DNA of 48,824 nucleotides from contig CASFQZ010000079.1 in the NCBI GenBank assembly GCA_949296825.1, positions 1 through 48,824 on the forward strand. Reading direction: 5' to 3'. Of this stretch, positions 6,765-37,566 are shown piece by piece. The translations under genes were made by a program, and so were the position numbers. Under the pieces are notes generated by a model, which saw only the letters and a program-made list of their open reading frames with translations, was not told the DNA's origin and did no database searches. How positions within the stretch are numbered: the first letter of the stretch is position 1; every line of letters starts with the position of its first letter. Origin of the DNA: an uncultured Eubacteriales bacterium. Lineage in GTDB: Bacteria; Bacillota; Clostridia; Oscillospirales; Acutalibacteraceae.

Positions 6765-6776
6765 TGTTTCACCTCG

Positions 6777-7622: not shown

Positions 7623-7674
7623 AAGTTTTCTCCTTTCGGGAAAGGGAAAATCTCCCTTCTATCCATACAAAGAA

Positions 7675-7703
7675 AGTATATCTTATTTGCTGCGAATAGT
7701 CAA
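7675..7703 (-). promoter_or_regulatory. strong sigma-A promoter of the isomerase-cohesin operon
   Basis: Reading leftward: -35 TTGACT (7698-7703), 17-base spacer, -10 TATACT (7675-7680), about 50 bases before the ATG at 7622. Close to consensus in both boxes. Confidence 0.75.
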
Positions 7704-9999: not shown

Positions 10000-10008
10000 A
10001 CGGAGCAT

Positions 10009-10869: not shown

Positions 10870-10918
10870 AAGGGACCCGAGACGAGCTTTTCCGCTCCTC
10901 GGGTCCCTTCTTTTTTCC
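10868..10918 (+). terminator. intrinsic terminator after rsmA
   Basis: AAGGGACCCGAG (10870-10881) pairs with CTCGGGTCCCTT (10898-10909), a 12-base perfect stem with a 16-base loop, followed by CTTTTTT. It separates the converging rsmA and hydA2 genes; on the minus strand the T run is short. Confidence 0.85.
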
Positions 10919-10920
10919 GT

Positions 10921-12381: not shown

Positions 12382-12438
12382 GGCGATCCGTCCTCTATCG
12401 TCATCGGCCGCAAAACAACGGCAGATATGTAAAATAAG

Positions 12439-13611: not shown

Positions 13612-15280
13612 CGGCGATCGACTCCTTTAATTTTGTTAAAGCAATTTTCGTTTCCGCTGCCGTTTCCCCCAGCAGGGAGGCAATCTCCTGGACAATGCGC
13701 ATCTGTTTATCGACCACATTGTCGGCAATCTCGGCGGTGTGACGGCTGATCTGCTCTTTCTTGCTGCGCTCCGATTCCTCGTTGGTCACATCGCGCATCA
13801 GACAGATCAGGATGCGGAAATCCCGATCGTACAGGATCGTCTCCTCCACATACTTTTTATACTCCGCCAGATACACCCGCTTATCCCGGACACTGACGCC
13901 GGTGTTGCGCACCTCCATAAAGTCCTTGGGCTCCAGAATGCGGATGATCTGCTCGCCCAGCACATCGCTTTCCGAACGCAGGTTCATGATTTTAAGGGCG
14001 GCGCGATTGATCTGCTGGACCTCCAGATTTTCGTTGGTCACAATGATGGCGTTGGGGGTATTGTTGATGATATTGTCCGAAAAGCTCTCCGCCCGATCTT
14101 TCAGGAAGGGGAGGCACATCGTCAGATCCGCCTTGCCCTGGAAAATGGCGACAGCTTTTTCGCGGCAGGTATTGTAGCCGCAGGAGCCGCAGTTCAGCTC
14201 CTGCGAAGGCTTCATCTTCCCCATCTTCCGCAGGATCGACTGGATCTCCGCTTCGTCAGGCATCACCTGCTTTTTGTCAATATACTCAAACTGCTTTTTG
14301 ATTTCCGCTTTAGCAACAGGCGCCACCTCGAAATCTTCTTTACCCGCGTAGGAAGTAACGGCGGCATAATTGCGCACCGGGCGGCGGTTGTATTTTTCCA
14401 TGACCGGACCGCCGACGCAGCTACCGATACAGGCGGACATCTCAATAAAGCAGTGATGTAAATTGCCGTTTTCGATGTCCCGCAGGGCGGCGATGCAGTT
14501 TTCGGTGCCGTCAATCGCCATATAGGTATAGCCTGCGGCGTCGCAATCCATCGATTTCAGGATACCGCCGGTGGTGGGAAACAGGCGCGTCCTGCTTTTT
14601 TCGGTGGCGTCCATTTCCTTTTCCAACGGGATGTTTTCCTCCGCCAGCCAGTCCGTCAGCTCCTCAAAGGTCAGCACCGCGTCCACAATACCGCGATAAT
14701 GATCCGCCTCATCCTTTTTGGAAAGGCAGGGACCGATAAAGACCGTCTTCGCCTCGGGGTTGCGCCGCTTGATGTCGCGGCAATGGGCTTGCATCGGGGA
14801 CATAATGTCCGCCAGATACTGCATGGAGCCGGGGAAATATTTCTGAACCAGAAGGTTGACGGAATGGCAGCAGGTGGAGATCAGGATATCCCGCTGATCC
14901 TCCCGCAGCATCCGGTCATATTCCTTCTTCACAATGGTCGCGCCGATGGCGGTCTCTTCCGCGCCGGCGAAGCCGAGCTTTTTCAGCGCCTTTTCCATGG
15001 CGCCGATGCCGCAGCCGTCATAATTGGCAATAAAGGAGGGCGCGATGCTGGCAATGACCGGCGCGCCGCTGCCGATAAAAACCTTGACCTTTTCCAACTC
15101 GGAAATGATCTCCTTGGCGTCCTGCGGGCAGACAACAAAGCACTGACCGCAGAGAATGCACTCCTCCGGCACGATATGCGCCTGATTGCCGGAAAACCGG
15201 ATGGATTTGACCGGACAGTGCCGGATGCATTTATAACAGTTTTTACAATTGGACTTTTTCAGCCTTAAAAATTCTGACAT
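13604..15280 (-). CDS. hydS: sensory [FeFe]-hydrogenase with PAS domain (HydS)
   Basis: 558 residues from the ATG at 15280; an upstream in-frame start at 15376 adds 32 residues that do not resemble protein of this family. Two N-terminal [4Fe-4S] motifs: CKNCYKCIRHCP (12-23) and CILCGQCFVVCP (41-52). The hydrogenase-like domain has L1 STCCHS at 135-140, L2 GPCLSKKDE at 183-191 and L3 MSACIGSCVGGP at 281-292. A four-Cys Fe-S domain follows (C364, C367, C372, C389), then a PAS domain at about 400-510 and a helical C-terminus. Cys-Cys is kept in L1 but the usual Pro is His. Group C/HydS proteins of this layout are proposed H2 or redox sensors that signal through the PAS domain. It sits between the ferredoxin and the phosphatase. 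H2 sensing is inference from the family. Confidence 0.87.
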   Translation of the reverse strand: MSEFLRLKKSNCKNCYKCIRHCPVKSIRFSGNQAHIVPEECILCGQCFVVCPQDAKEIISELEKVKVFIGSGAPVIASIAPSFIANYDGCGIGAMEKALKKLGFAGAEETAIGATIVKKEYDRMLREDQRDILISTCCHSVNLLVQKYFPGSMQYLADIMSPMQAHCRDIKRRNPEAKTVFIGPCLSKKDEADHYRGIVDAVLTFEELTDWLAEENIPLEKEMDATEKSRTRLFPTTGGILKSMDCDAAGYTYMAIDGTENCIAALRDIENGNLHHCFIEMSACIGSCVGGPVMEKYNRRPVRNYAAVTSYAGKEDFEVAPVAKAEIKKQFEYIDKKQVMPDEAEIQSILRKMGKMKPSQELNCGSCGYNTCREKAVAIFQGKADLTMCLPFLKDRAESFSDNIINNTPNAIIVTNENLEVQQINRAALKIMNLRSESDVLGEQIIRILEPKDFMEVRNTGVSVRDKRVYLAEYKKYVEETILYDRDFRILICLMRDVTNEESERSKKEQISRHTAEIADNVVDKQMRIVQEIASLLGETAAETKIALTKLKESIADE

Positions 15281-15403
15281 GGCAGCGCCCCCATTTTTTG
15301 TTTGGATTTTCGGGTTGACGGGGCTGTGCGCGATCCCCGTAAAACAAGCCGTCCCCGCGCCCTGCCCGACGGGCAAAGCGCAGGGGCTGGCATTTCCGAT
15401 GGT

Positions 15404-15643
15404 TTAAGCCTTGGGCAGGATCTCCGTCTCGAAAAACTGCTTGGTGGTCTCGGGCGAAAGAGAGTGGAACGCGCCGTCCACCGTGACGCAAACGCCCTCC
15501 TGGCACCTGCCCATACAGAAGGTGCCGCCCAGATCAACCTTATCCTGCAAATTATTTTTGGCAATCAGATATTGCAATTCCTCCACGATCTGTCTGGATC
15601 CCTTCAAATGGCAGGAACTGCCGATACAAACCGTAACTTTCAT
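15404..15643 (-). CDS. thioredoxin-like [2Fe-2S] ferredoxin (NuoE C-terminal type)
   Basis: 79 residues with the C-x4-C ... C-x3-C pattern of thioredoxin-fold [2Fe-2S] ferredoxins: C6, C11, C43 and C47 (VCIGSSCH and TFCMGRC). It resembles the C-terminal half of HydC/NuoE subunits standing alone. It lies between the kinase (15 bases upstream) and hydS, and probably passes electrons to or from a hydrogenase-like partner in the same operon, possibly HydS. Length is normal for the stand-alone form. The 120 bases between it and the hydS ATG hold a GC-rich region with a small GCCC/GGGC hairpin but no clear terminator. Confidence 0.88.
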   Translation of the reverse strand: MKVTVCIGSSCHLKGSRQIVEELQYLIAKNNLQDKVDLGGTFCMGRCQEGVCVTVDGAFHSLSPETTKQFFETEILPKA

Positions 15644-15658
15644 GCTTTGACCCTCTCT

Positions 15659-16408
15659 TTATTCGTAATCGACCACATCGACCCAGGACAGCAGGAACTG
15701 ACGCTCCTCGGGCTTGCCCTTGACCGACTGAGAAGCCGCAACAATGGGCAGCCATTTCTGCACATACTGCTTCGCGGTGTCGCTCTTTTTGCAGAACAGA
15801 TCCATATATTTTTCCGCCAGCTTCAACTCTCCCTTCAGATGAAAAAGCAGATAGGTACGCGCCGCGTCAGCGGAGGCGTTGCCCTGGGTGGCGTGGGACC
15901 AGTCGATGATATAGTATTTGCCCTCGGGGGTGACGATGATGTTGCCGGGGTTGAAGTCGCCGTGGCAGACCTTGCTGTGGCGGGGCATCGCTTCCAGCCG
16001 GGTGTGCAGATCGTACCGGGTGGTCGCATCCAGATCCGCCTCGCAGATCTTGCGGTTCATCTTATCCTTCAGGCGGTTGAGCATCGGGCATTTCTGGCTG
16101 AGGACTTCCAGCTGCAGGTCCACAAATACATCCAGATACTCATCGATTTTATCGGGGTTTTCATCCATCAGCTGCTGCAATGTTTTGCCGGGGATATAGT
16201 CGATGACGATCGCCCATTTTCCGTCGATCTTGGTCACCTCATGGATTTTGGGGATGTTCAGATCGGTCTCCTCGACCCGCGCCTGGTTGAGCGCTTCGTT
16301 CAGCACATCCGCCTTTGAGTAATCCTCGTTGAAAACCTTGATTGCCTTGTCTCCGTCCCGATATACGGTTTTCGTCGTTCGGACGGAAATCACTCTGTCG
16401 AGTTTCAT
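15659..16408 (-). CDS. APH-fold phosphotransferase (Ser/Thr kinase-like)
   Basis: 249 residues of the aminoglycoside phosphotransferase/choline kinase fold. The Brenner-type catalytic motif HGDFNPGN is at 149-156, and the metal-binding IIDW is at 167-170 (Asp169). The N-lobe starts with a short beta-rich segment (TKTVYRDGDKAIKVF), with Lys24 as a candidate ATP-binding lysine. It lies 34 bases after adhE. The R. albus operon includes a gene annotated as a serine/threonine protein kinase in this place, so the likely role is phosphorylation opposite to the PP2C phosphatase two genes downstream. Small-molecule kinase activity is the alternative, because this fold mostly acts on metabolites. Confidence 0.75.
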   Translation of the reverse strand: MKLDRVISVRTTKTVYRDGDKAIKVFNEDYSKADVLNEALNQARVEETDLNIPKIHEVTKIDGKWAIVIDYIPGKTLQQLMDENPDKIDEYLDVFVDLQLEVLSQKCPMLNRLKDKMNRKICEADLDATTRYDLHTRLEAMPRHSKVCHGDFNPGNIIVTPEGKYYIIDWSHATQGNASADAARTYLLFHLKGELKLAEKYMDLFCKKSDTAKQYVQKWLPIVAASQSVKGKPEERQFLLSWVDVVDYE

Positions 16409-16442
16409 AGTATTCCTCCTGCTCTCTTGCTCTATGGCTCTC

Positions 16443-19049
16443 TTACTTTCCGTAATACGCGTTCAGATACATCTGCTTGATCTCGCTCATCAGCGGATAG
16501 CGGGGATTTGCGCCGGTGCACTGATCGTCGAACGCCTGCTCGGTCATTTCATCCAGACGGTCCAGGAAATCCTTTTCATCGATGCCGTAGTCCCTGATGG
16601 TCTTCTTGATGCCGATCTTTTCCTTGAGATCATCGATGGCAGCGATCAGATTTTCGAGCTTTTCCTGATCGGTTTTGCCTTTCAAGCCCAGCTCGGTCGC
16701 AACCTGTGCGTAGCGCGCCAGGGTCTTCGGGTGATCATACTGCGGGAAGGTACCCATCTTGGGCGGCACCTCCTCGGCATTAAAGCGCAGCACCTGGTCG
16801 ATCATCAGCGCGTTGGCAACGCCGTGGGGCAGATGATGGAAGGCGCCCAGCTTATGCGCCATGGAATGGCAGACGCCCAAAAAGGCGTTGGCGAAAGCCA
16901 TGCCCGCCATGGTGGCGGCGTTTGCCATTTTTTCCCGCGCAACAGGATCGTTGGGACCGTTGTCGTAGGCGCGGGGCAGATATTCAAAGATCATTTGCAA
17001 AGCGCGGATGGCAAGACCGTCGGTGTAATCGGTCGCCATCATGGAGGCGTAAGCTTCCAGCGCGTGGGTTACCGCATCGATGCCGGACGCGGAGGTCAGC
17101 CCCTTGGGCGCGTTCATCATCATGTCCGCGTCCACAATCGCCATCTTGGGCATCAGCTCATAATCGGCAAGGGGATATTTGATGCCGCTGTCCTGATCGG
17201 TGATGACCGCGAAGGGGGTCACCTCGGAGCCGGTACCGGCGGAGGTGGGCACGGCGATGAAATACGCCTTATCGCCCATATGGGGGAAGGTATACACTCT
17301 CTTGCGGATATCCATGAAGCGCATTGCCATATCCATGAAATCCACTTCCGGATGCTCATACATCACCCACATGATCTTGCCGGCGTCCATGGCGGAGCCG
17401 CCGCCGACGGCGATGATGCAATCGGGCTTGAAGGCTGCCATCTGGGCAGCGCCTTCCTTGGCGCACGCCAGACTCGGGTCGGGTGCGACATTGGAGAAGG
17501 TTGTGTGGATAATGCCCAGCTCATCCAGTTTATCGGTAATGGGCTTGGTGTAGCCGTTTTCAAACAGGAAGGTATCGGTTACGATGAACGCCTTTTTCTT
17601 GTTCATCACATATTTCAGCTCTTCCAGAGCGACGGGCAGGCAGCCCTTTTTCAGATAGACCTTTTCGGGCGCGCGGAACCAGAGCATATTTTCTCTCCTC
17701 TCGGCAACGGTTTTAATGTTGATCAGGTGCTTGACGCCGACATTTTCGGACACGGAGTTGCCGCCCCAGCTGCCGCAGCCGAGGGTCAGGGAGGGAGCGA
17801 GCTTGAAGTTATACAGATCGCCGATGCCGCCCTGCGCCGAGGGGGTATTGATCAAAATACGGCAGGTCTTCATCGCTTCGGAGAATTGGGCGATCTTTTC
17901 CTTTTCGGTCACGGCGTTCAAATACACCGAGGAGGTATGACCGTAGCCGCCGTCCGCCACCAGACGCTCCGCCTTGCCGATGGCGTCGCTGAAGGTCTCG
18001 GCGTGGTACATGGCGAGCACCGGGGAGAGTTTTTCATGAGCAAATTCTTCGGAAATATCGACGCTTTCCACTTCGCCGATCAGAATCTTTGTGGTTTCCG
18101 GCACGGTGACGCCGGCGATCTGGGCGATCTTATACGCGCTCTGACCAACAATGCGGGCGTTGACCGAGCCGTTGATGATGATCGCCTTGCGCACCTTTTC
18201 GGTTTCCTCGTCGTTCAGGAAATAGCAGCCGCGCGCCATAAACTCCTTTTTGACCTGCTCATATATGCTGTTGAGCACGATCACCGACTGCTCGGAGGCG
18301 CAGATCATGCCGTTGTCAAAGGTCTTGGAATGAATCACGGAGCTGACCGCCAGAAGAATGTCGGCGGTGTCGTCAATGATAACCGGGGTGTTGCCGGGAC
18401 CGACGCCCAGAGCGGGCTTGCCGCTGGAATAGGCGGAGCGGACCATGCCGGGACCGCCGGTGGCAAGGATAATATCGGCTTCCTTCATCAAAAGGTTGGT
18501 CATATCCAGCGAGGGAATATCAATCCAGCCGATGATGCCCTCGGGCGCGCCGGCGGCAACAGCAGCCTCCAGCACAACCTTCGCCGCCGCAATCGTGCAT
18601 TTTTTCGCGCGGGGATGAGGGCTGATGATAATACCGTTTCTGGTCTTCAGCGAGATCAGCGTTTTGAAAATAGCGGTAGAGGTCGGGTTGGTGGTCGGGA
18701 TGACGGCGGCGACAACGCCCAAAGGCTCGGCAATCTTCTGAATGCCGTACTCCCTGTCTTCCTCGATCACGCCGCAGGTTTTGGTGTTTTTATATTTATT
18801 ATAAATATATTCAGCGGCATAGTGGTTTTTGATGACCTTATCTTCCACCACGCCCATGCCGGTTTCCTCCACCGCCAGCTTTGCCAGCGGAATGCGCTGC
18901 TGATTGGCGGCAACGGCGGCGGCAAAGAAGATCTTGTCCACCTGTTCCTGGGTATAGGTTGCAAAAACGCGCTGCGCTTCGCGCACCCGGGCAAGCATGG
19001 CTTCCAGCTTTTCGACGCTGTCTACGATGTCATACACTTTTTCTTTCAT
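16443..19049 (-). CDS. adhE: bifunctional acetaldehyde-CoA/alcohol dehydrogenase
   Basis: 868 residues from the ATG at 19049. The N-terminal half is a CoA-acylating aldehyde dehydrogenase with the nucleophile in NGMICASEQ (catalytic Cys near residue 246). The C-terminal half is an iron-dependent alcohol dehydrogenase with GGGSAMD and the metal site spread over [15 protein letters not shown]. It reduces acetyl-CoA to ethanol with two NADH and forms spirosomes in relatives. The rex stop and this ATG share one base (TGATG), with AAGGAG 8 bases upstream; a GTG one codon earlier is a less likely start. Length is that of full AdhE. It gives the cell an NADH sink when H2 is high, which fits co-expression with the H2-sensing genes downstream. 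Confidence 0.96.
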
Positions 19050-19702
19050 CACACAGTCTCCTTATTTTCAGCGGTTTTCAGTTTTTTCTTCAAATGACCG
19101 GACAGCAGCGCCAGCGCCGTCGCCATATTCTCATCCTGGATCAGGATCTCCTTCGGCGCCTCCAGATGGGCGGGCGCGAAGTTCAGAATGGCAAGTATGC
19201 CGTTGGCGATCATACGGTCGCAGACCTGCTGGGCTGCCACGGCGGGCACAGTGATGATTCCCATGCGGATGTTCAGCCTGCCGCACAGATCCTCAAAGCG
19301 GGACATATGAAAGATCTGTTTTCCGTTTTCGGTCTCGCCAACCACGGCGGGATCCTCATCAAAGGCGGCAACAATGTTCAGCCCGTAATTGTGAAAGCCC
19401 TCATACTCCAAAAGGGCTCTGCCCAATTTTCCGGCGCCGACAATCACGGCGTCATCCACATCGTTATACCCCAGAAAATCCTCCAGCTCCGCCATCAGAT
19501 CGCGCACCACATAGCCCACCTTGGGCTTGCCCGCGCCGCTGACGGACGCCAGATCCTTGCGCACCTGCACCTCGCCCATGCCCAGGGCGGCGGCGATGCC
19601 GGTCGCCGAGATGTACGGGCTGCCGGATTCGGGCAGGCTTTTCAGGTAGTTGAGATACACCGGAAGCCGGGCGAAAGTGGCTTTGGAAATTTTCTGCGTC
19701 AA
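19049..19702 (-). CDS. rex: redox-sensing transcriptional repressor Rex
   Basis: 217 residues. The N-terminal winged helix shows ISKATFARLPVYLNYL and ISATGIAAALGMGEVQVRKD (recognition helix). The Rossmann domain has VGAGKLGRALL, with Asp in AAFDEDP as the NAD(H)-discriminating acid, and the C-terminal domain-swap helix ends the protein. Rex binds DNA when NADH/NAD+ is low and releases with NADH, usually de-repressing adhE and hydrogenases. The start is TTG (19702): AGGAGG lies 8 bases upstream and no ATG fits. It heads the operon and couples to adhE. No full-consensus Rex operator is seen; a weak dyad (TGTGAT/ATTTTACA) overlaps the -35 region. Confidence 0.95.
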   Translation of the reverse strand: MTQKISKATFARLPVYLNYLKSLPESGSPYISATGIAAALGMGEVQVRKDLASVSGAGKPKVGYVVRDLMAELEDFLGYNDVDDAVIVGAGKLGRALLEYEGFHNYGLNIVAAFDEDPAVVGETENGKQIFHMSRFEDLCGRLNIRMGIITVPAVAAQQVCDRMIANGILAILNFAPAHLEAPKEILIQDENMATALALLSGHLKKKLKTAENKETV

Positions 19703-28665: not shown

Positions 28666-31107
28666 TCAATCAAAGGTATCCAGCCTTACCGCCACACGCA
28701 AAATCATGCGCGCGTCGGAGGACAAGATTTTGCCGTCTTTGTCCACATCGCTGGACAGTGTCTGTATCTCATCCAGCGTCTGCAGCCGCACCGCAGCGCG
28801 CAGCGCCAGACGGGCATCGGCGGTGGTGACTTGCCCGTTGCCGTCCACATCACCGAGCATATAAACCGGCTCGGTCGGCGCAGGAACGGTGGGCTGGGTC
28901 GGCGCCGTCGGAAGGGTCGGCGCCGTGCTCGGCACGGTGGGTCGGGTCGGCGCCGTGCTCGGCTCCGTAGGACGAGTCGGCGCCGTGCTCGGCTCCGTTG
29001 TCGAGGGCTCCGTCGTCGAAGGCTCCGTTGTCGAGGGCTCCGTCGTCGAAGGCTCCGTCGTTGAGGGCTCCGTCGTTGAGGGCTCCGTCGTCGTTGGCGC
29101 TGTCGTCTCCGGCGGCAGGGTCGAAGGCGGCTCCGTGTTGGGGATATCGTCTACATAACTGGAAGACGGCTTGTTCCAAACGACACGATACTCGCCGCAG
29201 ATACTGCACCGCCACGCCAAGGGGCTGCCGGTCCAGATATGGGCATTGGAATCGTTATATTCCGCATCAAACTCCGTGCCGCAGACCGTGCAGGTATGGT
29301 GCTTTAAGCCGGCGGCTTTACAAGTCGCCGAGCGAACAACGGTACCCGTGTCCTTCGTATGTCCCTTGGCGGGGACTTCCTCCGTTTTCAGCACAACACC
29401 GCAGCGCATACAGGTAAAGGTTCTGACACCGGGCTCGGTGCAGGTCGGCTCTTTGGTCACCGAACCGGTATTGGTCAAATGTCCCAGCGCGGCAACCGGC
29501 TCTTTGAAGCTGTCGCCGCAAATGGTACAGGTAAAGGTTTTTTCACCAGCCTCGGTACAGGTAGGCGCTTTGGTCTGACTGCCGGTATCGTAAATATGCT
29601 CATGGGTCAGGCGGACCGTCACCGAATAGGTCTGCCCGTCGGAGACCGCGATGGAAACGACGAAGCTTGTCTTTCCGCTGTGCAGCGCGTCCCGCGCCGC
29701 CGCCTGTACCGCCTCCTGCGACAGCACAACACTGTCGCCCCGCTGAGTCAGACCGGCGCTGCTGCCGGAAATCAGCGTATGAGTATAAAAATACAGCGGA
29801 ATGACCAGCTCGCCGCCGCTATTATAATGATAAGAGACCTCGGAAACCGGCGCGGCGGAGCCGTAGCTGACACAGTGCAGCTGCGCATTCTGCACCGCGT
29901 CGCTTTCGTTCCTGTAGGTTATCTGCTGGCTGAAAATCTGTTTCTGGGAGGTTCCGCCGAAATCCACATTTTCAAAAACATGGAAAACCAGCCCGTTGAC
30001 CTGCTCTGCCGTCAGGGAGCGCAGCGCGCTGTCATTCGTGCCACCGTAAAAGCCTCTGACATTTTTGGAAAGATAAATATCCTTGGAGACTCTGCCGGCG
30101 GGAATATAATAGATCTGGCAGGTATCCAGCCGGTTGCCGTTTTCGTCCTCGTCCCAGCGGTAAATGATGCCGTCGTCGGTGAAATACCGGGAGCGATCCG
30201 AAAATTCTGCTTCGGTGAATTCCATCGCGATACTCTCAAGGGCTGGCAAACCGCTAAACGCCTCAACCGGATATTCCGCCACATCCTCCGCTTCACTGCG
30301 CAGGGCGACGCCAAAAACAATATGCTTCAAAAACTCCATTTTGGTCCCGGAAGCAGTGTTGCCGAAGGCGGTAGTGCTGATTGCCTGCGGATTTTGATGG
30401 GGCGGCGCAAAATAAGCGGTATCGACCGCCTGCGCCGGCTTCGTAAGCGCAAAACGGAGATCAATCGCCGTGTCGGTTCCGCCGGGGAAATATCCGACCG
30501 CCCCGCCCTCTTTATATTGCAGCGCCTTCGACACACGAACCGTCAAATCGTCACAGGAGGGTGTAAAGAGCTGCTCGTTGACCTCCACGCGATTTTCGAC
30601 CACCTGCATGGTATACGCTGCCGCGTCATCGCGGAGGGCCTTGAACGCAAATTTATACAGCGGCACCGTCCCCCGGGCGGGAATGGAAGCCTCCGTCACC
30701 TGCATCGCCTTGTCCTTCATCATAAAGGCGAAGGAAACATAGCCCATACCATCCTCTTTGTCCGGATACCCGGCGGCGGTCCCCGCCGCGAATTCCATCC
30801 GGTCGGCATAGGGGTTCACCTGCAAGCCGGCGCGCTTTGCCGGTTCGCTTTTCGCGGAAGCAAACTGAAAGACGTTCAAATCATACGCCAAAACCAGCGA
30901 ACCGCTTTGCAGCCCCTGGATTTGGTCGGCGTAAACATAAACATAGAAAAACTGCCCCTGGACTGCGTCCACGGTGCCGTTCGCCCCGTTTACATCGCCG
31001 AGCACAAAGCCTGCCCCTTCGTCCGCCGCCAGAGCGATCGGCAGACCGGCGACAAGCAAAACAAAAGCCAACAACAAAGCCAGCGGCTTTTTCCAGAAAC
31101 GTTTCAT
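28666..31107 (-). CDS. large secreted protein: cohesin-like, BspA-type repeat, CxxC repeats, Thr/Pro linker, dockerin
   Basis: 813 residues from the ATG at 31107; GGAGG lies 7 bases upstream, and the promoter at 31139-31167 rules out the earlier in-frame ATG. In order: signal peptide (MKRFWKKPLALLLAFVLLVA); cohesin-like beta domain, about 35-190; a middle region with a BspA-like leucine-rich motif (FTDDGIIYRWD, then CQIYYIPAGR, near 320-345); three repeats with TCTEAG...TFTC-x2-CG and a fourth CxxC, about 510-645, which look like small zinc-ribbon modules; a TTEPS linker of seven units, about 670-705, continuing as Pro/Thr-rich to ~745; and a C-terminal dockerin (GDVDGNGQVTTADARLALR and SSDVDKDGKILSSDARMILR). 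Cohesin and dockerin in one chain suggests an adaptor scaffoldin that could bridge surface and catalytic proteins. No catalytic domain seen. Confidence 0.83.
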   Translation of the reverse strand: MKRFWKKPLALLLAFVLLVAGLPIALAADEGAGFVLGDVNGANGTVDAVQGQFFYVYVYADQIQGLQSGSLVLAYDLNVFQFASAKSEPAKRAGLQVNPYADRMEFAAGTAAGYPDKEDGMGYVSFAFMMKDKAMQVTEASIPARGTVPLYKFAFKALRDDAAAYTMQVVENRVEVNEQLFTPSCDDLTVRVSKALQYKEGGAVGYFPGGTDTAIDLRFALTKPAQAVDTAYFAPPHQNPQAISTTAFGNTASGTKMEFLKHIVFGVALRSEAEDVAEYPVEAFSGLPALESIAMEFTEAEFSDRSRYFTDDGIIYRWDEDENGNRLDTCQIYYIPAGRVSKDIYLSKNVRGFYGGTNDSALRSLTAEQVNGLVFHVFENVDFGGTSQKQIFSQQITYRNESDAVQNAQLHCVSYGSAAPVSEVSYHYNSGGELVIPLYFYTHTLISGSSAGLTQRGDSVVLSQEAVQAAARDALHSGKTSFVVSIAVSDGQTYSVTVRLTHEHIYDTGSQTKAPTCTEAGEKTFTCTICGDSFKEPVAALGHLTNTGSVTKEPTCTEPGVRTFTCMRCGVVLKTEEVPAKGHTKDTGTVVRSATCKAAGLKHHTCTVCGTEFDAEYNDSNAHIWTGSPLAWRCSICGEYRVVWNKPSSSYVDDIPNTEPPSTLPPETTAPTTTEPSTTEPSTTEPSTTEPSTTEPSTTEPSTTEPSTAPTRPTEPSTAPTRPTVPSTAPTLPTAPTQPTVPAPTEPVYMLGDVDGNGQVTTADARLALRAAVRLQTLDEIQTLSSDVDKDGKILSSDARMILRVAVRLDTFD
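28880..29095 (-). repeat. 15-base minisatellite encoding the TTEPS linker
   Basis: Seven in-frame 15-base units (28991-29095) of the form GGCTCCGTCGTCGAA alternate between two sequence variants, giving a partial 30-base super-repeat. Degenerate 30-base units (GGCGCCGTGCTCGGC type) continue to about 28880. The region encodes a Thr/Pro/Ser/Glu linker typical between scaffoldin domains. Unit number could vary by slippage. Confidence 0.85.
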
Positions 31108-31138
31108 ACCGGAACCTCCACATTCTGTTCTAATACTA

Positions 31139-31167
31139 ATCATACTATATCTTCATCTATAATACAA
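31139..31167 (-). promoter_or_regulatory. sigma-A promoter of the cohesin-dockerin gene
   Basis: Reading leftward: -35 TTGTAT (31162-31167), 17-base spacer, -10 TATGAT (31139-31144). It places the transcription start near 31132, so translation must begin at 31107. The rest of the divergent gap up to 31358 holds the opposing leader and an ACAAAG/CTTTGT hairpin near 31198-31222. Confidence 0.75.
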
Positions 31168-31290
31168 GGGATAATTTTCGCTTTCCCGTCAGCCTGCACA
31201 AAGAAAGGGGCGCCGCTTTGTCAAAATAAGGAAATTTTCATATCATTTGCTGAAAAATTTGCGTGTTTTCTGTAGATTTTTTCTGCCGGA

Positions 31291-31361
31291 TATGATAAAA
31301 TAAGCGCACGGCTGCCGGCTGCGCCGGCGCCAGTTTGTGATCTACGAGGTGTCACACAATG
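31291..31361 (+). promoter_or_regulatory. candidate -10 and leader of the DRTGG operon
   Basis: TATGAT (31291-31296) followed by AAAATAAG is a plausible -10; no -35 of quality is seen. The leader holds a GCCGGC-tgc-GCCGGC hairpin. A second weak stem, TGTGA (31336-31340) with TCACA (31352-31356), places the GAGGTG ribosome site in its loop just before the ATG at 31359. Confidence 0.35.
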
Positions 31362-31709
31362 AAAATCAGCGAAATCGTCGATATTCTGGAAGCCGACGTC
31401 ATCACCGGTGCGGATGCACTGGAGCGGGAGGTCTTTACCGTCTGCGGCAGCGACCTGATGAGCGATGTTCTGGCTTTTGTCAAGGAACAGGCGGTGCTTT
31501 TGACCGGGCTTGTGAACCCGCAGGTGATCCGCACGGCGGAAATGATGGACATGACCTGTATTGTTTTTGTCAGAGGGAAAAAACCAGACCTGAATATGAT
31601 CGAGCTTGCCAACGAAATGGAAATCGTGCTGCTGGGCACGGATTACGAGATGTTCACCGCCTGCGGACGTCTTTATACCAATGGGCTGCGCGGAAGAAGC
31701 GGAAAATGA
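31359..31709 (+). CDS. DRTGG-domain protein
   Basis: 116 residues that align by eye with the DRTGG domain: ISEIVDILEADVITG at the N-terminus, VTGRDLMSDVL-like CGSDLMSDVLAFV near 30-42, LLTGLVNPQVIRTAEMMDM and IVLLGTDYEMFTACGRLY. DRTGG domains occur beside CBS and Fe-S signalling proteins and in phosphotransacetylase, and are thought to bind a small ligand. GAGGTG precedes the ATG. The stop overlaps the next gene by 4 bases (ATGA). First gene of a three-gene operon with a serine-kinase-like ATPase and a HydS-like protein, a context repeated in many Clostridia. The ligand is unknown. Confidence 0.83.
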   Translation: MKISEIVDILEADVITGADALEREVFTVCGSDLMSDVLAFVKEQAVLLTGLVNPQVIRTAEMMDMTCIVFVRGKKPDLNMIELANEMEIVLLGTDYEMFTACGRLYTNGLRGRSGK

Positions 31710-32134
31710 TGGAGCCTCTGCACCTGCATTATGACGTCAGCGGCACCGATTTTACCTGCGCAGGCGAAGCATCCGGTAAAATCAAGCGCACGCTGAAATC
31801 CCTCGGCTTTTCCCCGGCGGTGATCCGCAATGTCGCCATCGCGGTCTATGAGGCGGAGATCAATATGGTGATCCACGCCGGCGGCGGCGAGATCGACTGC
31901 ACCATCCAGCCCGACCGGATCGTGATCGTGCTCAAAGACAGCGGTCCCGGCATCCCGGACATTGAACAGGCGATGCAGGAGGGCTGGTCCACCGCACCGG
32001 AAAATATCCGCCAACTGGGCTTCGGCGCCGGGATGGGACTGCCGAACATCAAAAAATATTCCGACGAGCTGAACATCGACAGCACCGTCGGCGTCGGAAC
32101 CACCATGACCATTACGGTGCGCAACCGCGCGTAA
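31706..32134 (+). CDS. RsbW-like GHKL ATPase (anti-sigma factor/serine kinase type)
   Basis: 142 residues of the HATPase_c_2 type. N box NVAIAVYEAEINMVIHA (about 44-60), G1 box DSGPGIPD (about 79-86), a lid segment, then G2 box GFGAGMGLPNIKKYSD (about 104-119) and GTTMTITV at the end. Such small ATPases phosphorylate STAS proteins or bind sigma factors; alone they lack the dimerisation helices of histidine kinases. Overlaps the DRTGG gene by 4 bases and is followed 11 bases later by the HydS-like protein. No STAS protein or sigma factor gene is nearby, so the target is unknown. The SpoIIE-type phosphatase at 12.4-13.6 kb is a natural opposing enzyme. Confidence 0.87.
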   Translation: MMEPLHLHYDVSGTDFTCAGEASGKIKRTLKSLGFSPAVIRNVAIAVYEAEINMVIHAGGGEIDCTIQPDRIVIVLKDSGPGIPDIEQAMQEGWSTAPENIRQLGFGAGMGLPNIKKYSDELNIDSTVGVGTTMTITVRNRA

Positions 32135-32145
32135 GCGCACAAGGA

Positions 32146-33471
32146 TTGGAGGCGCGCGTTACGGAACAGTATTACCATTCGGTCCGTCTGGACAAGGAAA
32201 AATGCGAGGGCTGCATCCATTGCATCCAGCGCTGCCCGACCCAGGCGATCCGTGTCAGGAACGGAAAAGCCATCATCGTTGCCGAACGCTGCATCGACTG
32301 CGGCGAGTGCATCCGGGTCTGCCCCCATAAGGCGAAATATGCCGAGCGGGACGGGTTGGAGGAGCTTGCCCGCTTTGATTATACGGTGGCGCTGCCCGCC
32401 CCCTCGCTCTATGGGCAGATCGCCAATGTGAAAGATATCAATTCCCTGCTTTGCGCCCTGCGCGACATCGGCTTTGACGATGTGTTTGAAGTGTCGGCGG
32501 CGGCGGAGCGCATTTCCTCCGGCACAAAAAAATTCTTAAAGGAAAACCCCGGCTTCCCCCGGCCGGTCATTTCCTCCGCCTGTCCGGTGATCTGCCGGCT
32601 GATCAGCGTCTGTTACCCGAACCTGATCGAGCATATCCTGCCCCTGCACTCCCCCATGGAGGAGGCGGGACGCCTGGCAAGGGAAGCGGCGGTTAAAAAA
32701 ACCGGTCTGCCGCCGGAAAAAATCGGCATCTTTTTCATCACGCCCTGCCCGGCGAAGGTGACCGCCATCCGCCATCCGCTGGAATGCGAGACCTCCAACC
32801 TGGACGGCGCGCTGGCAATGAACGATATTTATCCCGCCCTGCTGAGCGCCCTCAAGCACGAGCAGGCAGGCGACGAACTGCAAAGCTCGGGGCTGATCGG
32901 TGTCTCCTGGGGAATGACCGGCGGCGAGGCGGCAGGTATTTTATCGGAGGACGCGCTGGCGGTGGACGGCATTGAAAACTGCATGAAGCTATTGGAGGAA
33001 ATCGAGGACGAAAAGCTGCGGGACATTTCCTTCATCGAGCTGAACGCCTGCTCCGGCGGCTGCGTCGGCGGCGTTCTGACGGCGGAAAACCCCTTTATCG
33101 CCAAAGCCCGCCTGCAGCATCTGCGCAAATACCTGCCCGTGTCGATGAATCGCGCCTCTCTGGAGGAAACCCGGGACGTTCTGACGGCGGAAAAGCTGCC
33201 CGAGCCGGTGCCCGCCCTGCGGCTGGCAGACAATGTAGAAGAAGCCATGGAAAAAATGAACCGGTTGAACAGCCTGCTGGAGACCTTCCCCCGGCTGGAC
33301 TGCGGCACCTGCGGCGCGCCAACCTGCCGGGCGCTGGCGGAGGACATCGTGCGCGGCTATACCACCGAACAGGACTGCATTTTCCGCATCAAGGAGGAGC
33401 TGGAAGGCGCGGGACTCGGCAAAGCCGCCGAGAACCTGATCCCCCCGCCGTTCCGTCAGAAGAAAGGCTGA
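32146..33471 (+). CDS. HydS-like sensory [FeFe]-hydrogenase homologue with L1 Cys-to-Ala change
   Basis: 441 residues. Two ferredoxin motifs, CEGCIHCIQRCP (20-31) and CIDCGECIRVCP (49-60), then a hydrogenase-like domain with degenerate motifs: L1 SSACPV at 143-148 (first Cys of the usual CC is Ala), L2 TPCPAK at 199-204 and L3 NACSGGCVGG at 300-309. A C-terminal four-Cys Fe-S domain (C386, C389, C394, C411) matches that of HydS, but there is no PAS domain. The Ala replaces the proton-transfer Cys, as reported for sensory hydrogenases, so slow or no turnover is expected. The start is uncertain: TTG at 32146 has its AAGGA only one base away, while a GGAGG at 32148-32152 points to a non-standard GTT at 32158. 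Last gene before a terminator. Confidence 0.85.
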   Translation: MEARVTEQYYHSVRLDKEKCEGCIHCIQRCPTQAIRVRNGKAIIVAERCIDCGECIRVCPHKAKYAERDGLEELARFDYTVALPAPSLYGQIANVKDINSLLCALRDIGFDDVFEVSAAAERISSGTKKFLKENPGFPRPVISSACPVICRLISVCYPNLIEHILPLHSPMEEAGRLAREAAVKKTGLPPEKIGIFFITPCPAKVTAIRHPLECETSNLDGALAMNDIYPALLSALKHEQAGDELQSSGLIGVSWGMTGGEAAGILSEDALAVDGIENCMKLLEEIEDEKLRDISFIELNACSGGCVGGVLTAENPFIAKARLQHLRKYLPVSMNRASLEETRDVLTAEKLPEPVPALRLADNVEEAMEKMNRLNSLLETFPRLDCGTCGAPTCRALAEDIVRGYTTEQDCIFRIKEELEGAGLGKAAENLIPPPFRQKKG

Positions 33472-33576
33472 CCGCAAAGCCGCAGGCAAAGACGCGGCAA
33501 AGCCCGCCGTGCCGCCGAAAAACGGCAAACCCCTTTTTCCGGCAAACCGCGGGGATCTTCCCGAGCATAAAACCAA

Positions 33577-33617
33577 AACGCATCTGCCGCCTTTTTGGCG
33601 CAGGTGCGTTTTTTGCC
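33577..33617 (+). terminator. intrinsic terminator after the HydS-like gene
   Basis: AACGCATCTGC plus GCC (33577-33591, one bulge) pairs with GGC plus GCAGGTGCGTT (33597-33610) around a TTTTT loop, followed by TTTT. The preceding 100 bases (33472-33576) hold only short GC-rich inverted repeats. Confidence 0.85.
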
Positions 33618-33652
33618 GCGCACTGCGAAGCCGCCATACTTTGGCAGAGGGT

Positions 33653-33681
33653 TTGACTTTTTCCGAAAAACGGGGTATAAT
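33653..33681 (+). promoter_or_regulatory. near-consensus sigma-A promoter of the ligase-racemase-synthetase operon
   Basis: -35 TTGACT (33653-33658), 17-base spacer, -10 TATAAT (33676-33681). The transcript should start near 33688, directly at a 5' hairpin GTTTTTC (33690-33696) with GAAAAAC (33712-33718), extended by CCC/GGG. Confidence 0.8.
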
Positions 33682-33740
33682 ACTATGAAGTTTTTCGCCC
33701 GTGTTGGGTGGGAAAAACATGGGAACGGAGCGTGGAACCG

Positions 33741-34982
33741 ATGGAATTTAAGGAATTGGAATTTATGCCCGTCATTCTGGGCGCGGATATCACCGCCTAC
33801 AGCCTGGTGCGCAGCTTTCACGAAGAATACGGCGTCAAATCGCTGGTGCTCAGCCGCTCGCAGGCGAAAATCATCTCTGAAAGCCGGCTGGTGGAAAACC
33901 GGGTGTTTCCCGAGCTGGAAAAAAAAGAAGTGCTGCTGGACACGCTGCTTCAGATCGGCAAAGAATTTGAAGGCAAAAAAAAGCTGCTGATTCTGGGCTG
34001 CGGCGACTGGTACGTGCGCATTCTGATCGAAAACAAAAAGCTGCTCTCTCCCTATTATATCATCCCCTATATCGATGAGGAACTGCTGAATCAAATTGTT
34101 CTGAAGGATAAATTCTATGCCATTTGTGAAGAGCTGGGCATCGGCCATCCGAAAACCTATGTCTATGAGTGCGGCAAAGAGAACGACTTATCCTTTGATT
34201 TTTCCTATCCGGTGATCGCCAAGCCCGCAAACTCCGCGCTGTACCATTACGCAAAGTTTCCTTCCAAAAAAAAGGTCTTCCGTTTTCAAAAAGAAGAAGA
34301 CCTGCGCGCCATGCTCAAGGAGCTGGAGGGCTCCTCCTATGATTATAAATTCCTGATCCAGGACTGCATTCCCGGCGACGACACCTATATGCACGTGCTG
34401 ACCTGCTACAGCGACCGCAACGGAAAGGTCAAATTCGCCGCACTCGGGCATTCGCTTTTGGAGGACCACACCCCCACCGCCATCGGCAATCCCGTCGCCA
34501 TCATCAACGAGGTGATCCCCGAGGTGATTGAGGCGGCGACCCGTTTTCTGGAGCATGTGGGCTATACCGGATTTTCCAATTTCGATATTAAATACGATAC
34601 CCGCAACGGCACCTATAATTTCTTTGAAATCAATGTCCGACTGGGCAGGAGCAATTTTTATGTCACCGGCAGCGGCTTTAACACGGTCAAATGGATCGTG
34701 GACGATCTGATTTACCATAAGGAGCTGGAATACACCGTCGCCGACCGGGAGCATCTGTTTACCGTGGTGCCCAAGGGCATCATTATGCGCTATGTTCACC
34801 AGCCGCAGCTGCGCGAGCAGGTCAATCGCCTGTACCGCGAAAAAAAGGTCAGCTATCCGCTGTGGTACCCCTGTGACCTTTCGCCCAAACGCCGGTTCTA
34901 TGTAATGGCGGCGCTTTTGAACCAGTACCGCAAATATCACCGGGTGGAGCAGGCGGAAAAGAAAAAAGCGCGCCAAGCATAA
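33741..34982 (+). CDS. ATP-grasp ligase, D-aspartate ligase (AslA)-like
   Basis: 413 residues from the ATG at 33741 (GGAG about 10 bases upstream; two earlier GTG codons lie in the leader hairpin or the ribosome site). The N-terminal preATP-grasp domain begins PVILGADITAYSLVRSFHEEYG, very like D-aspartate ligases and other carboxylate-amine ligases. The ATP-grasp core shows YPVIAKPANS, FLIQDCIPGDDTY and the metal-binding FFEINVRLGRSNFYVT. It ends in a basic helix (EKKKARQA). D-Asp ligases activate beta-carboxyl D-Asp as acyl phosphate and attach it to the Lys side chain of peptidoglycan precursors. Its operon partners, an Asp/Glu racemase and an AsnB/AsnH homologue, are those expected for making and amidating D-Asp. 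The substrate is inference from context; other amino-acid ligases share the fold. Confidence 0.8.
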   Translation: MEFKELEFMPVILGADITAYSLVRSFHEEYGVKSLVLSRSQAKIISESRLVENRVFPELEKKEVLLDTLLQIGKEFEGKKKLLILGCGDWYVRILIENKKLLSPYYIIPYIDEELLNQIVLKDKFYAICEELGIGHPKTYVYECGKENDLSFDFSYPVIAKPANSALYHYAKFPSKKKVFRFQKEEDLRAMLKELEGSSYDYKFLIQDCIPGDDTYMHVLTCYSDRNGKVKFAALGHSLLEDHTPTAIGNPVAIINEVIPEVIEAATRFLEHVGYTGFSNFDIKYDTRNGTYNFFEINVRLGRSNFYVTGSGFNTVKWIVDDLIYHKELEYTVADREHLFTVVPKGIIMRYVHQPQLREQVNRLYREKKVSYPLWYPCDLSPKRRFYVMAALLNQYRKYHRVEQAEKKKARQA

Positions 34983-34998
34983 AAAAGAGGCGGTCAGA

Positions 34999-35712
34999 AT
35001 GAAAGAAAAAATCCTCGGTGTTCTGGGCGGGATCGGGCCGCTGGCAACGGTCTATTTTATGGATATGCTGGTTAAAATGACCGACGCCGAAAGCGACCAG
35101 CAGCATATTCCGGTGCTGTGCTTCAACCATTCCACCATCCCGGACCGGACCGCCTATATCCTGGATCACCGCAGCCCCAACCCGCTGCCGGTGATGGAAG
35201 AGGACGCAAAGCTTCTGGAGCGGGCGGGCGCGTCCTGCATCGTCATCCCCTGCAACACCGCCCACTATTTTTACGAACAGCTGCAAAAAGCCGTTGGTGT
35301 TCCGATCATCAATATCATCACCGAAACCGTTGCCGCCATCACCAGCCGGCAGCCGGAGGTAAAAAAAATCGGCATCCTTGCCACCGAGGGCACCATCGCC
35401 GCCGGGTCGTACCAGAAAGCCTGCGCCGACCGGGGCGTCGCCTGCGCCGTGCCCGGCGAGGCGGACCGCCGCTCGCTGATGAACATCATCTACAACCAGG
35501 TCAAGGCGGGCAAAGAAGCGGATTTTGAAGAATTCATGCGCATCATCGGCGTGATGAAGCACGACGGCTGCGACGCGGTCATTCTGGGCTGTACGGAGCT
35601 GTCGATCATCCATCGGGATTTTCATATGAAGCGGGCGGACGTGGTGGATTCGCTGGAAGTGCTGGCGAAAAAAAGCATCGCCCTCTGCGGCAAAAAAGCC
35701 CTGGAAGAATAA
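34999..35712 (+). CDS. aspartate/glutamate racemase family protein
   Basis: 237 residues of the PLP-independent Asp/Glu racemase superfamily. The two catalytic cysteines are present: C85 in VIPCNTAHY and C198 in ILGCTELS. The start is VLGGIGPLATVYFMD, as in aspartate racemases (GGMGP-x-AT), not as in MurI. The GAG-type ribosome site (GAGGCGG) lies upstream, and the gene starts 16 bases after the ligase. It should supply D-Asp (or D-Glu) in the cytoplasm; in the D-Asp cross-bridge route the racemase makes the substrate of the ligase. Length is normal. Hydantoin racemase is unlikely, given the GGIGP start. Confidence 0.88.
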   Translation: MKEKILGVLGGIGPLATVYFMDMLVKMTDAESDQQHIPVLCFNHSTIPDRTAYILDHRSPNPLPVMEEDAKLLERAGASCIVIPCNTAHYFYEQLQKAVGVPIINIITETVAAITSRQPEVKKIGILATEGTIAAGSYQKACADRGVACAVPGEADRRSLMNIIYNQVKAGKEADFEEFMRIIGVMKHDGCDAVILGCTELSIIHRDFHMKRADVVDSLEVLAKKSIALCGKKALEE

Positions 35713-35727
35713 AGAAAGGATACGCCT

Positions 35728-37566
35728 ATGTGTGGTTTTGTTGGATTTTTGAACGATGAAGCAAACGGCGAAAAAAACACCGCCGTCATCCGCGATATGG
35801 CGGACAAAATCCGTCATCGCGGTCCCGATCAGGATGATTATTTTGTCGATTCCGATATTTCCCTCGGCTTTCGCCGCCTGAGCATCATTGACCTTGCCGG
35901 CGGCAGCCAGCCGATTCTGAACGAGGACGGCAGCAGGGTGCTGGTTTTTAACGGCGAAATCTATAACTTTCAGCCGCTGCGGGAGGAGTTGATCCAGAAG
36001 GGGCATATTTTCAAAACCCAGACCGATTCCGAGGTGCTGCTGCACGGTTATGAGGAATACGGCCCCGACTTTACCAAAAGGCTGCGGGGGATGTTCGCCT
36101 ACCTGATCTGGGATCGGAACAGCCGGACCCTCTTCGGCGCCCGGGACATCTTCGGCATCAAGCCCTTTTTCTATTACGACGACGGACAGACCCTGCTTTT
36201 CGCCTCCGAGATCAAAGCCTTCTGCGCCCATCCCCGGTTCAAAAAGGAGCTGAACCGCGAGCGCATTCCCGAATACCTCTGCTTTGAATATATCCCCTCC
36301 AACGAAACCTTATTCAAACACGTTTACAAAATGCCTCCCGCCTCCTATTTTATCTGTAAGGACGGCAAAATGGAGATCAGCGAATATTATCACCTGCAAT
36401 ACCACATCGACGAGAAAAAAACGCTGGGGGAGTGGGAGGACCTCATCGCCGAGACCTTCCGCGACTCCACCGAGGCGCACGGCATCGCCGACGTGGAGGT
36501 CGGCTGCTTTTTGTCCAGCGGCATGGATTCCAGCTATGCGGTCAAGGAGATGGCGAAGGGTAACCGGGTCAAGACCTTTTCGGTGGGCTTCGCCGAGGAA
36601 AAATACAGCGAGCTGAAATACGCCGAGGAATACGCCAAGACCATCGGCGTGGATATTTTCACCAAAAAAATCACCGCCGACGAATACTTTGACGCGGTGC
36701 CCACCGTCCAGTATTATATGGACGAGCCGCTGCCGAATCCCTCCGCCATCGCGCTGTACTTTTTAACCAAAACCGCCGCCGAGCAGGTCAAGGTGGTCCT
36801 GAGCGGCGAAGGCGCGGATGAGCTCTTCGGCGGATACTATTACTATCAGGACCCGCTGGCGCTGCAAAACTACCAGAAGCTGCCCCGCGCTCTGCGCAAG
36901 GGCATTGCCAAAATCGCCGAAAAAATGCCCGAGGGCACCCACGGCAAGCGTTTTCTGGTGCGCGGCGCCCAGACCATCGACGAATATTATATCCGCAACA
37001 ACTATAACTTCAACTGGCGCGAGCGTGCGAAATACCTGAGCCCCGACATCCCCGCGCCGGACCCCGCCGTGTTCACCAAGCCCTTTTTTGACGCCTGTCA
37101 GGGAGAGGACGACATCACCCGGATGCAGTATGTGGACATGAAAACCTGGCTGGTGCAGGATATTCTGGTCAAAGCCGACCGCATGAGCATGGCGAATTCG
37201 CTGGAATTGCGCGTACCGTTTTTAGACAAAAAAATGCTGGAGGTCGCCCTGTCCATCCCCTCCCGCTATCGTGTGTCGAAGGAAGTGACCAAAATCGCCC
37301 TGCGGGGCGCCGCCGCCAAACAGCTGCCGGAGAAGAACGCCAAAATGAAAAAAATGGGCTTCCCCGTCCCCCTAAACGACTGGCTCAAGCAGGAGAAATA
37401 TTATAACATGGTCGAACGCGTCTTCCAAAGCGACACCGCCGCCCAATTCTTCAACCGCGACGCCATCCTCCGCCTCCTGCGCGAACACCGCGAAGGCAAA
37501 CACAATATGAAACGAATCTGGACCGTCTATTGCTTCCTTTTATGGTACCAAGCGTATTTTTGCTGA
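35728..37566 (+). CDS. asnB: glutamine-hydrolysing asparagine synthetase homologue (AsnB/AsnH)
   Basis: 612 residues. Class II glutamine amidotransferase domain at 1-~190: nucleophile Cys2 in MCGFVGFL, RHRGPDQDDY and FNGEIYN. The synthetase domain has the PP-loop SSGMDSSYA at about 264-272, GEGADELFGGYYYY near 363 and DRMSMANSLELRVPFLD near 483-499. Glutamine-dependent amidation via an acyl-adenylate. In lactic acid bacteria, homologues (AsnH of Lactococcus, AsnB1 of L. plantarum) amidate peptidoglycan carboxyls instead of free Asp. Its place after an ATP-grasp ligase and an Asp racemase makes amidation of a D-Asp bridge a serious alternative to free asparagine synthesis. It starts 15 bases after the racemase with AAAGGA upstream. 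Ends in a strong terminator. Confidence 0.9.
   Translation: MCGFVGFLNDEANGEKNTAVIRDMADKIRHRGPDQDDYFVDSDISLGFRRLSIIDLAGGSQPILNEDGSRVLVFNGEIYNFQPLREELIQKGHIFKTQTDSEVLLHGYEEYGPDFTKRLRGMFAYLIWDRNSRTLFGARDIFGIKPFFYYDDGQTLLFASEIKAFCAHPRFKKELNRERIPEYLCFEYIPSNETLFKHVYKMPPASYFICKDGKMEISEYYHLQYHIDEKKTLGEWEDLIAETFRDSTEAHGIADVEVGCFLSSGMDSSYAVKEMAKGNRVKTFSVGFAEEKYSELKYAEEYAKTIGVDIFTKKITADEYFDAVPTVQYYMDEPLPNPSAIALYFLTKTAAEQVKVVLSGEGADELFGGYYYYQDPLALQNYQKLPRALRKGIAKIAEKMPEGTHGKRFLVRGAQTIDEYYIRNNYNFNWRERAKYLSPDIPAPDPAVFTKPFFDACQGEDDITRMQYVDMKTWLVQDILVKADRMSMANSLELRVPFLDKKMLEVALSIPSRYRVSKEVTKIALRGAAAKQLPEKNAKMKKMGFPVPLNDWLKQEKYYNMVERVFQSDTAAQFFNRDAILRLLREHREGKHNMKRIWTVYCFLLWYQAYFC

Follow-up and report, generated by a model that had tools for sequence, protein, structure and literature searches.

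What does a hydrogenase homologue read when it is encoded beside a small kinase-like ATPase, and with which proteins does it work? The question is raised by a three-gene operon at 31359-33471 of a 48,824-nucleotide stretch of DNA from an uncultured Eubacteriales bacterium (contig CASFQZ010000079.1 of assembly GCA_949296825.1; the whole stretch is called the window). The operon encodes a DRTGG protein (DRTGG1), a SpoIIAB-like GHKL ATPase and an [FeFe]-hydrogenase homologue for which we coined the label HydD; together they are called the triad. A preliminary description of this DNA had joined the operon to a SpoIIE-type phosphatase in a second, HydS-containing operon of the window. It read the pair as a partner-switching circuit and proposed it as an undescribed system. 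We find that the operon is real, conserved and biologically meaningful, and that it lies within a described class. The regular partners of HydD are the ATPase and a PHP phosphoesterase; the phosphatase of the HydS operon is not one of them. The PHP protein and a second DRTGG protein (DRTGG2), whose genes lie outside the window, are the candidate signalling partners of the triad.

HydD as a group D hydrogenase

Open reading frame (ORF) calls and Pfam matches above cut-off give three co-directional genes, the first two of which share four bases (ATGA). HydD possibly starts later than at its TTG codon, since most relatives align from residue 5 to 8 onward. A scan of one genome each for 84,980 species returned 191 relatives of HydD, and we fetched the loci of the best 80 of these 191, which are close relatives only. 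Over these 80 and the window, the strand and order of the triad are constant, with the ATPase present in 81/81 loci and DRTGG in 80/81; the sole locus without DRTGG1 (L058) starts at its contig edge. In most loci, the DRTGG1 and ATPase genes overlap or abut. Given this constancy, the arrangement is not due to chance. The earlier view of a coupled sensor operon, made up of a DRTGG protein, an ATPase of the serine-kinase type and a HydS-like hydrogenase with Ala in L1, thus holds.

Land et al. (2020; PMC8163306) give group D hydrogenases two N-terminal clusters, loss of Cys299, replacement of Met353 by Ser or Thr, a C-terminal Cx2Cx4Cx16C motif and no PAS domain. We looked for each of these in HydD. 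The eight Cys of its N-terminal [4Fe-4S] pair, which is covered by Fer4 family matches, are each present in 81/81 loci. L1 reads SSACP, placing Ala145 at the position of the group A proton-transfer Cys (Ala in 79 loci, Ser in 2), and in L2 of the window protein PC is preceded by Thr199 (64 Ser and 17 Thr across the 81); the equivalence of these positions to Cys299 and Met353 is set by motif, not by structure. The H-cluster cysteines C146, C201, C302 and C306 are found in 81/81 loci, and the C-terminal Cx2Cx4Cx16C in the window and in 80/81, L068 being the exception. There is no Pfam match to PAS in HydD, though HydS, encoded nearby in the window, has one. HydD is adjoined by the kinase-like ATPase; HydA is on another contig here.

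According to a 2012 study (PMC3561251), group D was called sensory owing to its neighbouring kinases and bifurcating hydrogenases. Because HydD fits the published group D (M2e) traits, we are nearly certain that the operon belongs to a group D sensory-hydrogenase cassette; besides sequence traits, the class is marked by slow, CO-tolerant H2 activity. TamHydS of Thermoanaerobacter mathranii (PMC8163306) and Cthe_0335 and Cphy_3798 (PMC3561251) are examples of the class. They share with HydD the domain layout, the lost proton-path Cys, Ser or Thr before the PC of L2, the lack of PAS and the Cx2Cx4Cx16C motif; they share with the triad an adjoining kinase-like ATPase and, through its relatives, the association with bifurcating hydrogenases. 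Since a group D hydrogenase beside a kinase is already in print in both papers, calling the system undescribed was too strong. There are also differences. The window triad is not beside HydABC, and the T. mathranii gene is flanked by an AraC regulator (PMC8163306), whereas the loci collected here have constant DRTGG and PHP neighbours.

Partners of HydD across the order

To count partners, we used a sample of 197 genomes from the window's order, at a requested completeness of at least 80%. HydD was found in 98 of them, the ATPase in 100, PHP in 98 and an A6-like HydA in 177. The HydS-operon phosphatase, counted at E <= 1e-60, was found in 57; three weaker matches of a total of 60 were dropped (G007, G024 and G042, which have no group D match). 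Cross-tabulated as both, HydD only, other only and neither, the counts are 98/0/2/97 for the ATPase (Fisher p 4e-55) and 96/2/2/97 for PHP (Fisher p 2e-51). A Cochran-Mantel-Haenszel (CMH) test stratified by family, in which kinship within families remains, gives 2e-30 and 7e-29, respectively. PHP lies no more than 4 kb from HydD in 91/98 genomes. Some misses fall at contig ends: G115, without PHP, ends after HydD; G098, without HydD, ends after the ATPase; and G166 lacks HydA. In G113, there is a PHP match without a group D match.

The phosphatase behaves differently. Its table with HydD is 37/61/20/79, with a raw odds ratio of 2.4 (p = 0.008) and an odds ratio of 1.8 by CMH (p = 0.20), and on these numbers it is not a regular partner. 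Could the two loci still form one circuit, in which the triad ATPase and the HydS-operon phosphatase share one phosphoprotein and a single switch is set by two hydrogenase sensors? Each of the two sensory-type hydrogenases does have such an enzyme beside it, of the kinase type in one case and of the phosphatase type in the other, and the raw odds ratio points the same way. The phosphatase is where the preliminary description had placed it, in the other HydS operon about 18 kb off (17.7 kb from the start of DRTGG1). Furthermore, in one of the 80 loci (L039, local 9142-17412) the triad, PHP, a 2Fe-2S protein, HydS, the SpoIIE phosphatase and HydA2 form one co-directional run. However, the phosphatase is absent from 61/98 group D genomes and occurs without group D in 20/57, and the association is not significant once stratified by family. 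Each locus is thus often found on its own, an outcome that the preliminary description had itself named as speaking against its circuit. The two share a contig in only 3 of the 37 genomes that have both, 20, 85 and 203 kb apart in draft assemblies, and the only STAS protein of the window's genome belongs to a sporulation-type operon (see below). We consider such a circuit very improbable and judge the phosphatase to be part of a separate system from the triad; the earlier proposals that it is the natural opponent of the ATPase, and that one circuit is split over the two loci, are not supported by these counts. Two other PF07228 matches in the window's genome are SpoIIE-like and PP2C-like, one of each, and the counts above cover the HydS-operon phosphatase only.

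The usual form of the cassette is DRTGG1-ATPase-HydD-DRTGG2-PHP, often near the genes of a bifurcating hydrogenase (HydC, a second ATPase, a 2Fe-2S protein, HydB and HydA). For each of the 80 loci, we took the ORFs up to about 11 kb away from HydD and clustered them, leaving the window out and contig ends uncorrected. This census found PHP in 63 loci, HydB in 59, NuoE/HydC in 59, a 125-aa 2Fe-2S protein in 56 and the second GHKL ATPase (ATPase2, about 184 aa) in 54; PHP and ATPase2 were confirmed by Pfam, and HydB, HydC and the 2Fe-2S protein were named by eye. Where at least 1.3 kb is available downstream, PHP is present in 59/70 loci, and HydD and PHP are separated by a DRTGG2-like ORF in 60/63 PHP-bearing loci. 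The same layout may be visible in published locus tags: in PMC3561251, four tags separate the group D gene from the trimeric hydrogenase in each of six pairs (Athe, Csac, TTE, Cphy, Cthe and Teth39), for example Cthe_0335 and Cthe_0340-0342. This gap probably corresponds to the DRTGG2, PHP, HydC and ATPase2 genes of many of our loci.

In the window's own genome (92% complete), the cassette is dispersed, with the triad on contig C79, DRTGG2-PHP on C44 and HydA with ATPase2 on C22. Other genes flank the triad on both sides, so the usual adjacency is absent, although the contigs could still be chromosomal neighbours. PHP is likewise not next to HydD in the nearest relatives, L002 and L003. The cassette also reaches another phylum: a Parabacteroides distasonis record (L111, local 8197-11968) carries DRTGG1-ATPase-HydD-DRTGG2-PHP-ATPase2 together, with profile scores of 130.9 bits for DRTGG1, 185 for the ATPase, 367 for HydD and 198 for PHP. 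Its first gene is annotated as hypothetical, and its HydD has Phe at the L1 position. It is one of two records with a HydD match (E <= 1e-40) in a plasmid collection; the other, from Subdoligranulum, has DRTGG1, the ATPase and PHP as well.

The frequent company of hydrogenase genes allows another explanation, in which the cassette serves maturation or assembly of the bifurcating hydrogenase and has no part in signalling. HydA lies within 12 kb of HydD in at least 62/98 genomes, and an A6-like HydA match is present in 95/98. But G009 (97% complete) has the triad and PHP (L109, G009:C15:18000-30000) with HydD as the only PF02906 protein found, and HydABC was not found in the 19 kb around the Parabacteroides cassette. 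We consider a maturation role very improbable, the least probable of the explanations compared here. The same G009 genome has a HydG match, which fits the presence of an H-cluster in HydD.

In the open-licence literature, we found no paper on the constant DRTGG1/DRTGG2/PHP content, although PMC3608648 (Thermoanaerobacter) might describe the cluster. PMC13104023, on group D, makes no mention of kinase, phosphatase, operon or DRTGG, and nothing was found in that literature linking SpoIIE, GHKL or anti-sigma proteins with hydrogenase. The most useful result is that DRTGG1, ATPase, HydD, DRTGG2 and PHP make up a constant cassette, together with the negative outcome for the SpoIIE link.

Proposed signalling roles of the cassette proteins

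What could the ATPase do for HydD? Its best NCBIfam model is SpoIIAB (58 bits, below the cut-off of 135), and its best Protein Data Bank matches are SpoIIAB structures, followed by RsbW. Glu46 and Asn50 of SpoIIAB, which we take to be the catalytic base and a Mg ligand, have E49 and N53 as their aligned counterparts in the ATPase, and both of these are invariant in 81/81 loci. From this conservation we propose that the ATPase may be a serine/threonine kinase. In DRTGG1, S35 and T59 are conserved in 80/80 proteins and D36 in 79/80, and we propose that it is either a ligand sensor or the phospho-acceptor of the ATPase.

The known partner-switching systems, SpoIIAA/SpoIIAB/SpoIIE and RsbV/RsbW/RsbU, resemble the triad in their kinase-type GHKL ATPase, in which the same Glu and Asn align, and in the small partner gene directly upstream of it. 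The triad differs from them in having DRTGG, not STAS, as the partner and in a third gene that usually codes for a hydrogenase homologue; the SpoIIE-type phosphatase of the HydS operon does not regularly accompany it. A genome-wide STAS search (E <= 0.001) gave one match, on contig C41, in a spoIIAA-spoIIAB-sigF-like operon. Its neighbours there are an ATPase of the SpoIIAB type and an ORF whose product was identified by eye as a sporulation sigma factor. Outside this sporulation-type operon, no STAS protein was found at that threshold in the 92% complete genome, in agreement with the earlier remark that none was visible, and a STAS partner elsewhere in the genome was rejected.

The ATPase could instead be an anti-sigma factor: it would hold a sigma factor, DRTGG1 would act as the anti-anti-sigma factor, and H2 would set the regulon. 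The closest solved relatives of the ATPase do include the anti-sigma F factor SpoIIAB itself, and the gene order of the triad resembles that of the STAS-ATPase pair on C41. However, the ATPase falls below the SpoIIAB model cut-off, and inspection by eye, with no family search, revealed no sigma factor in the 26 largest of the ORF clusters from the 80 loci. We regard this role as improbable.

The sequences establish the identity of the genes, show that their motifs are intact and that the gene set is constant, and place its parts on separate contigs in this genome; an H2 or ferredoxin signal, a kinase activity, DRTGG1 as its substrate, PHP as its opponent and hydrogenases as the target are our inferences. 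HydD, we propose, would use its H-cluster and Fe-S clusters to exchange electrons with H2 and ferredoxin, but slowly, having lost the proton path. Its C-terminal [4Fe-4S] cluster would, through its redox state, switch the SpoIIAB-like ATPase between active and inactive. The ATPase would in turn phosphorylate DRTGG1, which takes the place that STAS has in SpoIIAA/SpoIIAB, or bind it in a nucleotide-dependent manner; DRTGG2 and PHP would reverse or read the state of DRTGG1 and the ATPase, and the output of the cassette would tune hydrogenases. In favour of this mechanism, the DRTGG1 and ATPase genes mostly overlap or abut, as the STAS and ATPase ORFs on C41 also do. Residues of PHP that presumably form a metal site are invariant in 19 aligned rows, and its motifs are widely kept over 63 proteins (HxHS in 61, TDHN in 60, SDAH in 62 and GMEL in 44). 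Taken as a whole, this mechanism is tentative and rather doubtful. The best explanation overall, that the operon is the sensor half of a group D cassette working by this mechanism, comes closer to an even chance but stays below it. A strict STAS-free phosphoswitch, running from a hydrogenase-type sensor through a SpoIIAB-like kinase to a DRTGG substrate, with the metal-dependent PHP phosphoesterase, paired with DRTGG2, as the opposing phosphatase, is unlikely.

Several points weigh against the mechanism. DRTGG1 and DRTGG2 have S35 in common, and its role may therefore lie in the fold or in ligand binding and not in phosphorylation. PHP enzymes can also hydrolyse nucleotides and RNA, and the sub-cut-off NCBIfam matches of the cassette PHP include nucleoside bisphosphate phosphatase and RNase models. 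G073 (L101, G073:C3:48000-62000, local 5903-7676) lacks HydD but keeps DRTGG1, ATPase, DRTGG2 and PHP in this order ahead of hydrogenase genes, and the input can therefore not be HydD in every case. A HydG match is absent in 48/98 group D genomes, including G166, and loading of HydD with an H-cluster is therefore not assured everywhere. Finally, G171 encodes a divergent HydD in which the L1 and L2 patterns are not matched, with the ATPase present and PHP absent.

The hydrolysis of nucleotides by PHP enzymes and the model matches of the cassette PHP also favour an explanation without protein phosphorylation, in which the ATPase and the DRTGG proteins sense adenine nucleotides and gate HydD or HydABC allosterically. 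GHKL domains can work through ATP-dependent conformational change. The regulatory region of a pyrophosphatase with CBS and DRTGG domains is reported to have been solved with AMP and with Ap4A. On the other side stands the invariant Glu of the ATPase, as a catalytic base would be unneeded for binding alone. Nucleotide sensing is thus an unlikely reading too, on a par with the strict phosphoswitch and ahead of the anti-sigma role.

HydD, one ATPase and one PHP protein occur together almost without exception, and DRTGG1 and DRTGG2 lie next to them in nearly all loci examined. This provides a short testable list of partners that leaves out the SpoIIE phosphatase. H2 sensing in gut and rumen fermenters affects the split among H2, ethanol and acetate. 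If the STAS-free phosphoswitch were true, it would amount to a signalling cassette shared across phyla, with members in Bacillota and in at least one Bacteroidota record, and would explain the signal output of group D hydrogenases.

The HydS operon and other neighbours

The second hydrogenase-type operon of the window is a known locus of the Ruminococcus albus hydS-hydA2 type (Table 1). The annotated order on pRUMAL01 of R. albus 7 is rex, adhE, phosphotransferase, two 2Fe-2S genes, [Fe-Fe] hydrogenase-like protein, SpoIIE family phosphatase and HydA2. The window operon has this order, with one 2Fe-2S gene where R. albus has two; HydA2 alone was aligned, and the other genes were matched by annotated order. 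A matching hfsABCD operon of Thermoanaerobacterium, with a serine-phosphatase-like HfsC, is described in PMC11837493, and PMC5707799 relays a proposal by Zheng et al. concerning HydS. Unlike the triad, operons of the hydA2-hydS/hfsABCD type encode a PAS-type HydS together with a SpoIIE phosphatase and contain neither a DRTGG nor a GHKL ATPase gene; they occur independently of the triad.

Table 1. Genes of the triad and of the HydS operon in the window
Feature	Coordinates	Strand	Details
DRTGG1	31359-31709	+	116 aa; PF07085 32.9 bits, cut-off 25.2
SpoIIAB-like GHKL ATPase	31706-32134	+	142 aa; HATPase_c_2 45.4 bits, cut-off 27.4
HydD ([FeFe]-hydrogenase homologue)	32146-33471	+	441 aa from TTG; PF02906 108 bits, Fer4, PF04060
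HydA2, monomeric [FeFe]-hydrogenase	10921-12381	-	TIGR04105 550 bits, cut-off 450; 73% identity to R. albus 7 gene
HfsC-type SpoIIE phosphatase	12439-13611	-	PF07228 55.5 bits
HydS, group C type with PAS	13604-15376	-	PF02906 158 bits, PF04060, PAS 26.6 bits
2Fe-2S protein	15404-15643	-	ORF and family search
APH-like phosphotransferase	15659-16408	-	ORF and family search
AdhE	16443-19052	-	named by eye and by place in R. albus 7 operon
Rex	19049-19702	-	named by eye and by place in R. albus 7 operon

The C-terminal 169 residues of the phosphatase (12442-12948, minus strand) match no Pfam or NCBIfam model; the full 390 residues align in many genomes. Rex control of the triad was considered and rejected, as there is no Rex-like site near it; the window has two matches with three mismatches to the Rex consensus, against a chance mean of 1.0. 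Promoter and terminator scans of 31000-33800 were near chance (2 against 1.4 and 6 against 4.3).

Among the 197 genomes, HydG (TIGR03955, E <= 1e-60) matches in 85 and A6-like HydA (E <= 1e-100) in 177, which includes 99 HydA-positive genomes without a HydG match. HydG was not found by tblastn in the 17.5-19 kb hydrogenase stretches of L104 and L106, the rest of those genomes being covered by the family search, and nothing was found in the open-licence literature on HydG-less hydrogenases.

Upstream of the triad, the product of 28666-31143 (minus strand) is, by eye, a large protein that looks secreted, has a linker of Thr/Glu/Pro/Ser repeats and carries two dockerin-like repeats at its C-terminus. 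Downstream, 33708-37566 (plus strand) holds genes for an ATP-grasp-type protein (CPSase_L_D2 20.9 bits, cut-off 19.8), for an amino-acid racemase (229 bits against the cysteate racemase model NF052483, whose cut-off is 190) and for a protein that was recognised by eye as an AsnB-like synthetase. In L002 and L003, too, relatives of these three genes are found near the triad, inverted in L003.

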